Source: Mojavia pulchra JT2-VF2 (GTDB taxonomy: Bacteria > Cyanobacteriota > Cyanobacteriia > Cyanobacteriales > Nostocaceae). Taken from it: a stretch of 64,000 bases of DNA. The stretch is from the NCBI GenBank assembly GCA_019359325.1, contig JAHHHN010000005.1, positions 62,001-126,000 on the forward strand, in the 5' to 3' direction. Position numbers and translations under genes: made by a program. The notes beneath the pieces were generated by a model. It searched no databases. It was not told the origin of the DNA and saw nothing but the letters and a program-made list of their open reading frames with translations. Each line of letters begins with the position of its first letter. The stretch's first letter is position 1. Below are positions 14,509 through 19,527 of the stretch, in pieces.

Positions 14509-14898
14509 ATGCCAGAAACACCTTCGGATAGCATTTGGATTGTGACCGATGACACCCCGCAAATATCCATTCCTGAGGGTACTAGAGGCGGGATTTCTAG
14601 AGGAAGTGACTGGGGAGAAGAAACAAGAGAAATTATTAGGAGTAAAGGAGATGGAGATGCAGTTAAAGTTAGCGCGCAAAAATTAGAGCAAGAAATGACT
14701 CACTTTTTGCAAGTGGTAGGACGCTTATTCAGCCGTGCAGAACAGCAAGCTAAAGTTAACTCTGGGATGCAGCTAGAAGAAATTGAGCTATCGGTAGAAA
14801 TTAGCGGTGAAGGCGAAGTAAAGTTAATTGGTAGTGGTGCTAAAGCTAGCGGTAAAGGAGCAATTAAGCTGACCTTCAAACGGCAAGAACCAAAATGA
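14509..14898 (+). CDS. Pepco-like domain protein, partner of the caspase-FGE gene
   Basis: A 129-residue protein: an N-terminal beta segment (SIWIVTDD), a central helix (SAQKLEQEMTHFLQVVGRLFSRAEQQ, about 62-87) and C-terminal beta strands with alternating pattern (LEEIELSVEISGEGEVKLIG, SGKGAIKLTF). This matches what I recall of the Pepco and Trypco1 small domains that accompany caspase- or trypsin-like effectors in predicted bacterial conflict systems. The start codon of the caspase gene is one base past its stop, so the two are almost certainly cotranscribed. The assignment is by pattern and context; the biochemical role is unknown. Confidence 0.65.
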   Translation: MPETPSDSIWIVTDDTPQISIPEGTRGGISRGSDWGEETREIIRSKGDGDAVKVSAQKLEQEMTHFLQVVGRLFSRAEQQAKVNSGMQLEEIELSVEISGEGEVKLIGSGAKASGKGAIKLTFKRQEPK

Positions 14899-14899
14899 T

Positions 14900-16906
14900 A
14901 TGGCGAAGAATAGGGCGATCGCGATCGGCATTAACCGATATGATTTACTGCAACCGCTAAAATATGCCAAGCGGGATGCACAGTTAATGCAGGAGTTTCT
15001 CCGCAATGAAGCAGGTTTTGAGCGGATATACTTCTTCTCCGATGATTCGCCTGATGTGAACGGTAAATCAACTCGCCCAAACCGCACTAATTTGCTACGA
15101 ATTTTGCGACAGTTATTTGAACAACCCTTCTTGGGCGCAGGAGATAACTTTTGGTTCTTCTTCAGTGGTCATGGGATACGCCACAATGATCGTGATTATC
15201 TCATGCCTTGTGATGGCGATCCAGAGGATATTGAAAACACAGCAATTTCGATTAACTTTGTTACAGAACGCCTGCGTCGCTGTGGTGCTGATAACGTTGT
15301 CTTGATTTTAGATGCTTGTCGTAGTCTTGCCACTCGCGCTGGTGAAGGAATTGGGCGACAAACTGCTGAACAAGCACGTCAACAAGGAGTTATCAGCATT
15401 TTTTCTTGTAGTCCCCAGGAATATTCTTATGAAATAGAGGCGTTACAACAAGGTGCTTTTACCTGTGCGTTATTGGAAGGGTTAGGAATTCAAGGTCAAT
15501 GCGCTACTGTTGAACGGTTGAACCAGTATCTTACTTTTCGAGTCCCGGAAATTGTACGTCAGCATCAAAATGGCAGGCAAACACCTTATATTATTGCCGA
15601 GCCTGTAAATAAATCCCACCTAATACTTGTACCGCGATATGCAACCTTAGCTGATATTGCAACGCTGAAAAATGATGCTTTTAACGCTGAACTTGCGAAG
15701 AATTTTGAACTAGCAGAACAACTATGGATGCGGGTGCTAGCTGCGGCTTCTGGCCAAGATGTGGATGCTGTAAGGGGGTTACAAAGGATTGCACGGCTAT
15801 TAGCAGAACCTCAAGCGTCACCTTCACCACCTCCTAATATTACTCAGACTTCTGGGAACGGAACATCTACAAAATCTGCACCCCCACAGCTACAGTTGCC
15901 ATCGCTTATCTTACCGCGACGGCGTTTCATTCAAATTGTTGGGTTGGTAGGGGCTGGGGTTGGTTCGGCAATTGTCGGAGAACACTTCTTATTTGGTTCA
16001 AAAAATAAACCCCAACCAGCGCCCAATACAAATGAACCTACAACAACTCCGACAACACCAGCCAATTCTGTTACCCAGTCTCGCGCCTCACCAATTCGCT
16101 TACAAACCTTTAAATTTGATGTCGTTACGGTGGATGCAAAGGGAAGCATCACCAACCGCCGTAAGCAAGAAGTAAAATATTTTGTCGAGAACTTAGGGAA
16201 TAGTGTCACCTTGGATATGATGCAGATACCAGGGGGAACCTTTATGATGGGTTCGCCACCAAGAGAAGCAAAACGAGGGAATGATGAAGGGCCACAACAT
16301 CAAGTAAAAGTTCCAGGATTCTTCATGGGTAAATATGAAGTGACCCAGGCGCAATATCAAGCAATTATGGAGAATAATCCTGCCAAGTTTAAAGGAGAAA
16401 CAAGACCTGTAGAACAAGTTAGTTGGGATGATGCGGTAGAATTTTGTAAAAAATTAAGCCAGAAAACAGGACGCACCTATCGACTACCCAGCGAAGCCGA
16501 ATGGGAATATGCTTGCCGTGCTGGAACGACTACACCGTTTTATTTTGGCGAAACTATTACCACTGATTTAGCAAATTACGACGGAACTTATACTTACGGC
16601 TCTGCACCAAAAGGTCAATATCGTCAACAAACAACACCTGTAGAAAAATTTCCGCCTAACTCTTTTGGTTTATACGATATGCATGGTAATACATGGGAAT
16701 GGTGTCTAGATAAATATCATAATAATTACGAAAGAGCGCCCAAAGACGGCAGTGCATGGCTGAGTGGTAATGATAATTCTCGGCTGATGCGCGGTGGCTC
16801 TTTCCTCAGCAATCCGTGGTACTGTCGTTGTGCTAGTCGCAATAGGGACGCGCACGCGTATCGTACCGACGATGTTGGTTTTCGGTTAGTGTGTGTAGTT
16901 GCATGA
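14900..16906 (+). CDS. Caspase (C14) - membrane anchor - FGE-sulfatase domain fusion; candidate DGR target
   Basis: 668 residues. Residues 1-245 are a caspase/metacaspase domain with catalytic dyad H91 (FFFSGHGIRH) and C140 (LILDACRS). Residues about 250-300 form a helical, TPR-like stretch (NAELAKNFELAEQLWMRVL). A Pro-rich linker, one hydrophobic helix (342-366, preceded by RRR) and a Thr/Pro linker follow. Residues 434-668 are a formylglycine-generating-enzyme (C-type-lectin-like) domain: IPGGTFMMGS, YRLPSEAEWEYACRAG, YDMHGNTWEWC, GFRLV. Similar FGE domains in cyanobacteria are mostly binding modules, not sulfatase activators. The last 40 residues have the form of a retroelement-diversified variable region. 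Probable signal-triggered protease: FGE sensor on one side of the membrane, caspase on the other; topology is inferred. Confidence 0.88.
   Translation: MAKNRAIAIGINRYDLLQPLKYAKRDAQLMQEFLRNEAGFERIYFFSDDSPDVNGKSTRPNRTNLLRILRQLFEQPFLGAGDNFWFFFSGHGIRHNDRDYLMPCDGDPEDIENTAISINFVTERLRRCGADNVVLILDACRSLATRAGEGIGRQTAEQARQQGVISIFSCSPQEYSYEIEALQQGAFTCALLEGLGIQGQCATVERLNQYLTFRVPEIVRQHQNGRQTPYIIAEPVNKSHLILVPRYATLADIATLKNDAFNAELAKNFELAEQLWMRVLAAASGQDVDAVRGLQRIARLLAEPQASPSPPPNITQTSGNGTSTKSAPPQLQLPSLILPRRRFIQIVGLVGAGVGSAIVGEHFLFGSKNKPQPAPNTNEPTTTPTTPANSVTQSRASPIRLQTFKFDVVTVDAKGSITNRRKQEVKYFVENLGNSVTLDMMQIPGGTFMMGSPPREAKRGNDEGPQHQVKVPGFFMGKYEVTQAQYQAIMENNPAKFKGETRPVEQVSWDDAVEFCKKLSQKTGRTYRLPSEAEWEYACRAGTTTPFYFGETITTDLANYDGTYTYGSAPKGQYRQQTTPVEKFPPNSFGLYDMHGNTWEWCLDKYHNNYERAPKDGSAWLSGNDNSRLMRGGSFLSNPWYCRCASRNRDAHAYRTDDVGFRLVCVVA
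16781..16903 (+). other. Candidate variable region (VR) of a diversity-generating retroelement
   Basis: Encodes residues 628-668 of the FGE domain, from RLMRGGSF through RNRDAHAYRTDD to GFRLVCVVA. Known DGR targets with this fold have a conserved RGGS..CR....R.....GFR frame with randomised positions where the template has adenines (often AAC codons). Here the residues between NR and GFR are coded by GAC GCG CAC GCG TAT CGT ACC GAC GAT, which is GC-rich and unlike the A-rich codons around it. No reverse transcriptase or template repeat is visible in this window. Confidence 0.6.
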
Positions 16907-16907
16907 G

Positions 16908-16927
16908 CGCTCCCAAAAGTCAGAGCG
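16908..16927 (+). other. Small hairpin directly after the candidate VR
   Basis: CGCTC (16908-16912) pairs with GAGCG (16923-16927), with a 10-base loop, two bases after the caspase-FGE stop codon. DGR targets can carry a hairpin just downstream of the VR that aids homing, but this stem is only five base pairs and could equally be chance. It lacks the U-run of a terminator. Confidence 0.35.
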
Positions 16928-16959
16928 GATAAATGGGAATTTATCGGGCGTACATTCAA

Positions 16960-17598
16960 TCATATTTGCCCTCTTACGCAAGCCCGAAATGCCTTCATCG
17001 CAGCATTTCTCCCATCAGTTTTACTCCGCATTAAGTATTCAGGAATTGCTTGAGCAATAGGTAAATTAGGAAAAATAGCACTAGTCGTAGATGCTACATA
17101 TTTACCATTAATCATCATATTAATTTCTAACTTAGTTCCATTCCACCGCCATAATTCAGGCACACCCAATACCTCATAATTATTAAAACGGGTGCGAGAG
17201 GTAATATCAATTTCGATTGCTAAATCTGGAGGTGGGTCAACCGTTAAATCAATTCTATCCTTACCTCGAACAGCAGCTTCATTTTGTATGTAAAAACAAT
17301 CATCGGGTTCTACTCCAGCATCCATTTTTTCTTTATCAAAAGTTGTAGACCCCAAGCTCCAAAATTCAATATCGAGTTCTTCTAGTAGAGCCTTTACTAA
17401 GTCCCCTATAATAACCTTAGCTACCTCATGCTCTGGTAATGGAGCCATGATTTCTAGTATTCCTTGACTGTAAGATATCCTAGAACTGCGGCTTTCACCC
17501 AATTCTGCCAAAATATTTTTGTATGTCGACCAAGATATATCTTTAATCAATAACTGATGACCGACAGGTACAATTAGTTGGTTTAGTTGAAGTAACAT
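16960..17598 (-). CDS. Uma2 family (DUF820) PD-(D/E)XK endonuclease-like protein
   Basis: Restriction-endonuclease-fold protein of the Uma2/DUF820 family, extremely abundant in filamentous cyanobacteria; biological role unknown. Core motifs: SRISYSQGILEIMAPLPEHE, GVEPDDCFYI (first acidic residues) and PPDLAIEIDITS (E-x-D in place of ExK). The start ATG at 17598 has a GGAG 11 bases upstream; longer in-frame starts at 17619 and 17646 exist but have no obvious ribosome binding site. From 17598 the protein is 212 aa. Convergent with the caspase-FGE gene. Confidence 0.82.
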   Translation of the reverse strand: MLLQLNQLIVPVGHQLLIKDISWSTYKNILAELGESRSSRISYSQGILEIMAPLPEHEVAKVIIGDLVKALLEELDIEFWSLGSTTFDKEKMDAGVEPDDCFYIQNEAAVRGKDRIDLTVDPPPDLAIEIDITSRTRFNNYEVLGVPELWRWNGTKLEINMMINGKYVASTTSAIFPNLPIAQAIPEYLMRSKTDGRNAAMKAFRACVRGQI

Positions 17599-17770
17599 CA
17601 CTTTGCTCGCTCCTATCATTAACCTAACTAGTACCAAGTCCACCATAGTTGATGGTTAACATCAAAATAGCACGAGTTTTAGGTTGTAGCATAAGTGCTG
17701 TAATTTTCTTATACCCGCTTATGCATGAAAATAAATTTGGTGTTTTTGCAATCGCACAAAGCAAGCACTT

Positions 17771-18060: not shown

Positions 18061-19527
18061 TCAACTCAACAACTCACCTAATTGATGCTGAATCAGCAAT
18101 CCTCTAAGCGTGGCATTTTCAGCCTTCATAGCGTTATTTTCAGCCTCTAATTCACTAATTCTCGCCTTTAATGCTTCCTTGGTTGTACCTTGCCTGAGAA
18201 TAACCACTTCTCGATAAATTTCTAAATTGGCATTCTCATTCATCCATCTTTGATAAGTCTTAGTATGCTCTTGTACGGTATGCCCCATATAATCTGCCAT
18301 TGTCTTAATAGGGACTTGCAAGCGATGTCCGCGTATTGCATAAGCATGACGTAAATCATAGGGTCTAAAACCTATATTAGTCACTCTAAATCTGATATGA
18401 AGTTTTGCCGTTCTATTGCTTAATTTCCCTTCATTAAAAGGAAATTTTACATTCTTTAAATCAAATAATTCCACCCAATGGGGATGTAATGGCGGAATAC
18501 CACAACTGCGTTCACCAGTTTTAGTACCATCTGTCAGACTAGGATTTAAAATTACAACATGAAAGGTATTTTTGGGATTAGTAAATGCTTCTATATCTAC
18601 AGCGAATAATTCATGAGGTCTTAACCCGTAAGTGGCTAACATACCATATGCCCATTGCCATTGTTCGGGTTGCGTGATGTTCTCTTTACTAGCATATGCT
18701 GATAACGGCATCCCAATTTTAGTAAACCCTTGAATAATCTCTTCATCTAACGGAACTTTGCGAATCGTCGGATGAGGTTTAGGAGTTGCATATGCATCAA
18801 TTGTTTTAACACCATTAACCCCGCAAAATTCACAAAACTTCTTGAGTTGCCATGCTAAAAAAAACCTCCCCGATGTATTAGGTTTGGTTTTTTCTAGTGC
18901 TTTCTCCAAAGCTTGTAAAGACATCGGCACATCTTGAGGTAGTTTTTTTAAATGCCTTAAATAATGAGTTTCCCAAGTACGTATTCCTTGCCTATTCTGT
19001 TCATGGGTTTTCCAAAATTCTCGCTCATATTCTTGAATCCACTCACTGATGAGCTTGGTGGAATTTTCTGGCTCTGGTAATACTAGCTTTTGCGCTTGCT
19101 TACCTAATAATTCTGGTGTCCACTGAAATTGCTTTGTCATTATTAGTAAGTCTAATTCCCGTGCTTTCACGACTGCCGTTTTGACTCCGATATCATTAGC
19201 AGGAAAGCCAAATGAAATAGTATATTGTTTACTTCGACTATAATTTTTTCCCACATCACCAGGTCTACAAGGAAACGTTCCCTGTAAACCAATAGATTTA
19301 GCACTAGTTAGCTTAAGTTTAACTTTGACTCTATCCAGACTTAATGCAGAGTTAGCTTGTTGAATAGCGTGTTTTATCCTCAGATATTCACGTTCCAACT
19401 TTACGCCTTCGTCTGATATGGATTTAGGTTTCCATTGTTTCCACTTGGATGGCTCCCACTTGTCAATTGATATACCATCCCACTCAGCATTACGGGGGTC
19501 GTAGGTACTAGAATCGTTGCTAGACAT
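18061..19527 (-). CDS. Tyrosine recombinase / site-specific integrase
   Basis: 488-residue phage-integrase-family recombinase. The N-terminal ~240 residues contain a DNA-binding core-type region (ISEWIQEYEREFWKTHEQN). The catalytic domain shows the first arginine in YGLRPHELFAVD, the HxxR-type box in YDLRHAYAIRGH, a histidine in DYMGHTVQEHTK and the nucleophile tyrosine in TKTYQRWM. The C-terminus (about 445-480) is a leucine-zipper-like coiled coil (KARISELEAENNAMKAENA). Divergent from a GerMN lipoprotein gene and near a ParA cassette, which suggests an integrated-element origin, though no phage or conjugation genes or attachment duplications are seen. Confidence 0.88.
   Translation of the reverse strand: MSSNDSSTYDPRNAEWDGISIDKWEPSKWKQWKPKSISDEGVKLEREYLRIKHAIQQANSALSLDRVKVKLKLTSAKSIGLQGTFPCRPGDVGKNYSRSKQYTISFGFPANDIGVKTAVVKARELDLLIMTKQFQWTPELLGKQAQKLVLPEPENSTKLISEWIQEYEREFWKTHEQNRQGIRTWETHYLRHLKKLPQDVPMSLQALEKALEKTKPNTSGRFFLAWQLKKFCEFCGVNGVKTIDAYATPKPHPTIRKVPLDEEIIQGFTKIGMPLSAYASKENITQPEQWQWAYGMLATYGLRPHELFAVDIEAFTNPKNTFHVVILNPSLTDGTKTGERSCGIPPLHPHWVELFDLKNVKFPFNEGKLSNRTAKLHIRFRVTNIGFRPYDLRHAYAIRGHRLQVPIKTMADYMGHTVQEHTKTYQRWMNENANLEIYREVVILRQGTTKEALKARISELEAENNAMKAENATLRGLLIQHQLGELLS

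Follow-up and report, generated by a model that had tools for sequence, protein, structure and literature searches.

The caspase-FGE gene and its neighbours

The window analysed here is a stretch of 64,000 nt from Mojavia pulchra JT2-VF2 (assembly GCA_019359325.1, contig JAHHHN010000005.1, positions 62,001-126,000 of the forward strand). At 14900..16906 (+) it carries an ORF of 668 aa encoding a caspase-FGE protein, a target protein of the type used by diversity-generating retroelements (DGRs). Pfam assigns two domains to it: Peptidase_C14 (caspase) at aa 4-233 (14909..15598, +; E 7.1e-27) and an FGE-sulfatase domain of the C-type-lectin fold at aa 439-664 (16214..16891, +; E 4.8e-60). Within the caspase domain, a His in SGHG and a Cys in DACRS were seen by eye, and we take them to be the usual dyad of the family. 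By its domain and this His/Cys pair the protein counts as an orthocaspase (Peptidase_C14), with a predicted protease activity.

The structure predicted for aa 421-668 has a pLDDT of 88.6. Foldseek ranked PvdO (5hha) as the best match to this FGE-domain model, followed by Treponema denticola variable protein 1 (PDB 2y3c; TM 0.81, sequence E 2.6e-28) and then by FGE. The Treponema protein thus shares the FGE-like fold. It is a chain of 294 residues, presumably with no caspase domain, and we also take it to be a DGR target with a C-terminal variable region (VR). A title in the reference list of PMC7159879 says as much of the Treponema target.

A Pepco-domain gene (14509..14898, +; PF24393, E 1.3e-36) lies directly upstream of the caspase-FGE gene, and tblastn found a Pepco relative in many related loci. 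Downstream of the caspase-FGE gene, a convergent Uma2 gene (16960..17646, -) has relatives in loci L080, L089, L091, L099, L076 and L067. Further on, the second of the ORFs listed behind that gene (18061-19527, -) encodes a 488-aa protein with a weak phage integrase match below the Pfam cut-off.

The variable region is homologous to DGR templates

The VR spans 32 codons, 631-662 (RGGSF...GFR; 16790..16885, +), as defined by template alignment and by variability among orthologues. It encodes RGGSFLSNPWYCRCASRNRDAHAYRTDDVGFR and lies within 16781-16906, the segment that a first, sequence-only reading had named as a probable DGR variable region. These codons can be aligned with the DGR templates found in other Nostocaceae. 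A search with the gene's final 147 bases gave matches in 47 of the 192 family genomes of our comparison set (the own genome included in both counts). One template found in the matching loci reads RGGSWNNNPRNCRSANRNRNARANRNNNVGFR; in most templates the adenine fraction of the core is 0.29-0.41. Being C-terminal, situated in a C-type-lectin-fold domain and homologous to templates, the VR is a DGR-type target by descent.

We compared the VR with the templates of relatives base by base. Against the nearest of 35 such templates, that of L061, 12 of 25 template adenines are changed, all non-synonymously, along with 11 of 71 other bases, five of them non-synonymously. The Fisher p for adenine bias is 0.0019 with this template, which was picked as the nearest, and ranges from 0.0002 to 0.12 over the 35 foreign templates. 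With a consensus template the window gives p 0.017, and two controls behave alike, namely L099 (0.009), an FGE end whose DGR past is not established, and the own paralogue on C35 (L054; 0.018). The test does not separate the window from the controls and is weak evidence. Since it is unspecific, the case rests on hypervariability and on the 3' flank.

Two details of composition bear on the same comparison. Residue 635 is encoded by TTC in the window versus TGG in the templates, a change at non-adenines. The GC-rich look of the VR (GCGCACGCG) is also present in the templates (GCGCRCGCG), so it is not in itself a signature of mutation.

Hypervariability is concentrated in template-adenine codons

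The genus is represented in the collection by a single genome, the own one, so the VR comparison runs between species. Sixteen orthologue loci were tried and 13 used; a stop interrupts the ORF of L167 and the start pattern was unmatched in L168 and L169, so these three were left out. At the 13 VR codons for which the templates of relatives have adenine-bearing Asn or Arg codons, mean identity to the window is only 0.148, versus 0.684 at the other 19 VR codons. Mean identity is 0.771 for the FGE domain before the VR (aa 439-630) and 0.848 for the caspase domain. When 13 FGE positions were drawn at random 20,000 times, no draw was as low as the template-adenine codons. Moreover, the third position is C or T in 11 of these 13 codons in the window, versus 50% in the gene upstream of the VR.

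Most of what the sequence-only reading had said about the protein therefore agrees with the data. The 668-aa ORF does combine Peptidase_C14 with FGE-sulfatase. The fixed frame with a variable core is borne out by the identity values above, and the proposed comparison of the VR with the rest of the FGE domain likewise came out in its favour, the adenine codons varying much more from one related species to another. Template homology, these hypervariable codons and the spacer behind the gene described below support the view that the caspase-FGE protein carries a DGR-type variable region. As for the claimed GC-rich core with codons departing from an adenine-rich template, the changes at 12 of 25 template adenines agree with it, within the limits of a weak and unspecific test, and its GC-richness does not distinguish it from the templates.

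Two orthologous VRs carry larger changes. In L094 (genome G143) there is an in-frame insertion of about 21 residues. In L080 (G055), about 340 bp with 15-nt inverted repeats (1590-1936) interrupt the VR; the neighbouring Pepco and Uma2 of that locus are 93% and 87% identical to those of the window.

The gene is followed by a remnant of a template-type spacer

Behind the VR, the gene's 3' end encodes LVCVVA and the stop codon; together with one further base this segment (16886..16907, +) is identical at 19 of 22 positions to both the VR and the template repeat (TR) of L061. It belongs to a tract common to VR and template in relatives, and is likely the tract in which a crossover would have occurred.

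The 47 nt behind the stop (16908..16954, +) are a remnant of the spacer RNA that is found 3' of templates in relatives, and thus a template-type flank. The flank comparison covered three loci, in which the window matched the TR flank versus the VR flank at 45 and 12 of 47 positions (L061), 42 and 10 (L079), and 42 and 12 (L062). The spacer hairpin GATAAAT/ATTTATC (16928..16945, +) is preserved; the remainder of the RNA is gone, including the 3' side of the outer closing stem, and the stop codon of Uma2 follows just behind the truncated spacer.

We built a covariance model of the spacer (R1, 149 positions), trained on 29 loci from 27 family genomes with the window excluded. In the 29 sequences, 99.2% of cells are paired in the modelled structure, versus 29-51% when it is slid, and 14 pairs show changes on both sides. 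R1 matches the window at 16916-16958 with 30.4 bits over model positions 17-59, with an E of 9.1e-7 in the window and, roughly, 1.2e-4 in the genome. This is the sole significant place in the whole genome, the next match having an E of 3.28.

The flank behind the VRs of relatives differs from the spacer. It typically starts with GAGGA[CT]TC, is pyrimidine-rich and often contains, by eye, a short GC-rich inverted repeat; for the VR flanks of L061 and L051, the repeat finder (arms of at least 6 nt) listed no such repeat. With the same minimum arm length, the window at 16886-17000 contains just the spacer hairpin and a 6-nt palindrome. In phage BPP-1, excerpts of PMC3240598 state, a recipient VR must be followed by an IMH and a hairpin. 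Judged by this BPP-1 rule, the window VR appears to be without the target-type flank (IMH) and the hairpin, and its template-type flank should block homing if cyanobacterial DGRs behave likewise.

DGR machinery in the M. pulchra genome

The assembly is an 8.19 Mb draft of 85 contigs, listed as 100% complete. With the RVT_1 profile, four genes gave five matches in all at E <= 0.001. Three of these genes (L001, L002 and L003) encode group II intron reverse transcriptases (RTs) with maturase or HNH domains (Pfam, PADLOC), and the fourth (L004; C72, 1216-2265(-)), near a contig end, a DRT2-type defence RT (PADLOC E 1.6e-129). The best match in the own genome to the BPP-1 Brt query had an E of 0.0155. 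A cyanobacterial DGR RT query found two weak matches there, the better at E 4.9e-9, and no clear DGR RT or fragment of one. Across the family, the BPP-1 RT query matched at 1e-10 in 67 of 192 genomes, some of these being weaker matches to other RT types. The cyanobacterial query identified an intact RT, meaning an alignment of at least 300 residues, in 45 of 192 (E 1e-149 or better; genomes tallied manually).

Searching the assembly DNA with the VR returned the VR itself and one paralogue at E 7.7e-4, and no template repeat. With a relative's template as query, the matches were the own VR (E 1.0e-22) and two FGE paralogue ends on C50 and C7 (3.3e-9 and 4.0e-8), whose core adenine fractions are 0.19 and 0.24. 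R1 found no second spacer in the assembly.

The sequence-only reading had envisaged a receptor that still modifies itself and had proposed looking for a near-identical template repeat next to a DGR RT. Neither was found in the 85-contig draft, and the VR flank is of the template type. We rejected an active self-modifying receptor in this genome because TR and DGR RT were not found in it.

Both paralogue ends deserve a brief description. The C50 gene (L051, 1474-3303(-)) encodes a second caspase-FGE protein whose VR-like end is followed by the target-type flank GGGAGGATTC, which makes it a possible orphan DGR target whose flank has survived. On C7 (L053), a third FGE end resembles a VR, and its flank (CAGGCTCTTC) looks degenerate.

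Cassettes, compact pairs and fusions in related genomes

In L026, whose cassette we read from end to end, the target with its VR comes first, followed by the bAvd accessory gene, the RT and the TR; the other RT-bearing loci mostly have comparable VR-TR distances. VR-TR differences in RT-bearing loci fall almost exclusively on template adenines (20/20 in L019, 14/14 in L026). Nine loci have a compact layout instead, with VR and TR 312-326 bp apart and no RT between them, and in a tenth, L035, the distance is 358 bp and the RT stands just behind the TR; the pair listing that gave these distances was filtered (no fewer than 60% of the mismatches at A and no more than 12 elsewhere) and so is biased to adenine-pure pairs. 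Compact pairs with a spacer, in genomes that yielded no intact DGR RT, are present in L061 (G079), L062 (G108), L063 (G130), L066 (G009), L070 (G006), L073 (G171), L074/L096 (G162) and L092 (G109); possibly they were once trans-acting cassettes.

The R1 search of 32 of 80 related loci found a full spacer in 18. In eight of these the spacer begins 333-345 nt behind the VR, and our pattern caught a TR in seven of the eight. In the other ten, VR and spacer are fused, the spacer beginning 12-18 nt behind the GFR codon of the VR and matching R1 over its full length; the reading frame of one, L167, is broken. In a second set of 14 fused loci the spacer scored 147-160 bits in 12, and 83 and 80 bits in L060 and L100. 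Preservation this good in 12 of 14 means that the fusions are of recent date or that the fused arrangement has a role of its own.

We examined eight VR-TR pairs for identical runs and found them at both ends, 15-39 nt at the 3' end and 10-60 nt at the 5' end, so that simple recombination would give two products. A crossover in the 3' end would leave the mutated VR joined to the spacer, and one in the 5' end would leave the unmutated template in the gene, again with the spacer behind. Both predicted products are seen, the unmutated-template form in L067 and L112; by eye, no clear VR/TR chimera was recognised among the fused loci. In L067 (G101) and L112 (G127) the gene encodes the adenine-rich template in frame, directly followed by the spacer, and both genomes have an intact DGR RT.

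Loss of the RT is accompanied by mismatches at non-adenines

We next consider VR-TR mismatches in an unfiltered set, for which 43 loci were tried and 32 pairs scored; for each locus we kept whichever pair had the lowest number of mismatches at non-adenines. Non-adenine positions account for 5 of 379 mismatches where the genome has an intact RT (25 pairs) and for 13 of 97 where it has none (seven pairs). The excess is significant by Fisher's test (p 1.8e-6) and, over the 32 pairs, by the Mann-Whitney test (p 6.6e-4), although mismatches within one pair are not independent. No pair was obtained in 11 loci (L018, L020, L024, L031, L038, L045, L064, L069, L071, L074 and L098). Manual scoring added three of them, with non-adenine mismatches of 3/18 (L018), 0/14 (L069) and 4/14 (L074); eight loci are still without a pair. 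The totals then become 8/411 with an intact RT and 17/111 without (p 3e-7).

Such an excess is the pattern to be expected of pairs that drift once homing has ceased. In this comparison, layout is in part confounded with RT loss, as the RT-less pairs are all compact and the RT-intact ones mostly classical cassettes; the compact pairs with an intact RT have non-adenine mismatches of 1/18 (L035), 0/15 (L079) and 0/14 (L069).

The spacer is more widespread than the enzyme. It occurs in 91 of 192 family genomes, and by manual tally 44 genomes have both spacer and intact RT, one the RT only, 47 the spacer only and 100 neither.

A probable frozen former DGR target

Taken together, the locus is in our judgement likely to be a frozen former DGR target whose template collapsed into the VR. 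Observed directly are the homology and hypervariability of the VR, a flank of the template type, an assembly in which our searches turned up neither TR nor DGR RT, and relatives with the same kind of fusion. From these observations we infer in what order the events took place, that recombination caused them, and that the protein has ligand-binding and effector roles. The ancestor would have had a caspase-FGE gene ending in the VR, then about 200 bp of target-type flank and template leader, the TR and the spacer RNA. Mutagenic retrohoming would once have rewritten adenine positions of the VR, and the RT would later have been lost from the genome. VR and TR, as direct repeats about 315 bp apart, could then have recombined in their common 3' end, which would have deleted the TR and the DNA between the repeats. 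This would have joined the mutated VR to the template's spacer, a template-type flank taking the place of the homing flank. The rest of the spacer would then have been deleted as far as the Uma2 stop codon (16960), and the protein would retain a caspase-type effector domain with a single, unchanging tip for ligand binding.

Several points count against the frozen target. No single lineage shows all the proposed steps. The assembly is a draft, so that a DGR on missing DNA is possible. A purely dead remnant also leaves the undecayed spacers of most fused relatives unexplained unless the fusions are recent. The want of a clear chimera among the fused loci by eye, the adenine-bias test that scores controls like the window and the TTC at residue 635 weigh on the same side, and with one genome in the genus the comparison is confined to other species.

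The spacer could also have entered by aberrant retrohoming: instead of VR-TR recombination, a cDNA extending into the first part of the spacer would have delivered it to the target. In BPP-1, cDNA synthesis is primed within the spacer, and the length of the window's remnant, about 47-51 nt, brings its end near that place. We nevertheless regard this route as unlikely. The spacer match is full length in all ten fused loci, and Uma2 relatives also lie downstream of L091, L076 and L067, fused loci that all have the full spacer; later trimming thus explains the short remnant.

A second alternative holds that an RT and template on DNA missing from the assembly continue to diversify the VR in trans. 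The draft state of the assembly is compatible with it. In excerpts of PMC10907252, the diversification of RT-less Thiohalocapsa loci is best explained by trans activity, and the own paralogue L051 still has a target-type flank behind its VR. We consider trans diversification improbable here all the same, because the assembly yielded no clear DGR RT, no fragment and no second spacer, and because the window VR has a template-type flank, whereas a recipient VR in BPP-1 needs an IMH and hairpin according to the excerpts of PMC3240598.

The fusion may, on a further reading, be a recurrent configuration in which the 3' end of the gene itself serves as template, the mRNA tail with repeat and spacer RNA being copied by an RT in trans; the window would then be the end stage of such a DGR. 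This is suggested by L067 and L112, by the fusion in ten of 18 spacer-bearing loci and by the good preservation of the spacer in 12 of 14, and we give it very little credence. Ordinary evolution of an FGE-like surface loop with no DGR history, for which the unspecific adenine test (L099, L054 and the window alike) may be cited, is hardly credible: we rejected it because the template spacer stands directly behind the gene, a chance match having an E of roughly 1.2e-4 in the genome, and the variability is also concentrated in template-adenine codons.

If the locus is indeed a frozen target, it and its relatives would offer a readable route, by RT loss and template-target fusion, to a fixed receptor on a death-type effector. 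DGRs belong to the small number of known mechanisms that let a lineage of cells mutate one of its receptors on purpose. The template's spacer RNA is a marker able to outlive the enzyme, 47 of the 91 spacer-bearing genomes being without an intact DGR RT, and with it one could test whether multicellular cyanobacteria fix receptor variants that serve them or just shed the machinery.

Relation to known systems

Excerpts of PMC7517822 (Vallota-Eastman et al. 2020) describe cyanobacterial DGR variable proteins that combine an orthocaspase with a C-terminal CLec domain. They also report remote DGR targets and, for Nostoc PCC 7120, two DGRs as well as a remnant without RT. The window's protein resembles these in its orthocaspase-like N-terminus, its C-terminal CLec domain and a VR near the 3' end. 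Unlike the systems described in those excerpts, the own genome has no TR or DGR RT that we could find, and a VR-spacer fusion would account for the loss of its template.

Degenerate and trans-diversified DGR loci have been published for Thiohalocapsa PB-PSB1 (PMC10907252, 2024, in excerpts). There, too, loci are without RT or TR, and the targets are putative antigen sensors of conflict systems. In that genome, components have given way to MITE-like arrays and transposons, and complete DGR loci are present at other places, whereas the window is best read as a repeat collapse and no DGR RT was found. Excerpts of PMC7159879 likewise link DGR targets to conflict systems, and from these papers and its domains the window's protein might be expected to act as a protease that a ligand triggers within a conflict or cell-death system.

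Both the DGR-diversified caspase-CLec protein and the RT-less remnant thus have published precedents; a description of VR-spacer fusion, VR-TR collapse or orphan VRs was not found among the results of our literature searches, outside which most subscription journals lie. The excerpts of PMC8144416 contain nothing on VR-TR collapse or orphan VRs.

A further comparison is provided by the BPP-1 target Mtd, a phage tail protein with the CLec fold. Its DGR (PMC3240598, in excerpts; record AY029185) copies TR to VR in an adenine-directed manner, as would once have happened at our locus, and, unlike that of the window, is complete and active.

Among known RNAs, Rfam RT-14 (RF02921) matches the spacer behind cyanobacterial templates, with 49.0 bits for L019 (gathering cut-off 48.1) and, both below that cut-off, 44.6 for L037 and 42.3 for L026. 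Under default filters none of 15 loci was listed, L019 included, and the Rfam search of 16700-17300 gave nothing at the window's spacer remnant. At L019 the RT-14 RNA occupies 2729-2880, directly 3' of a DGR template, a position which suggests that RT-14 is the RNA flanking DGR templates.
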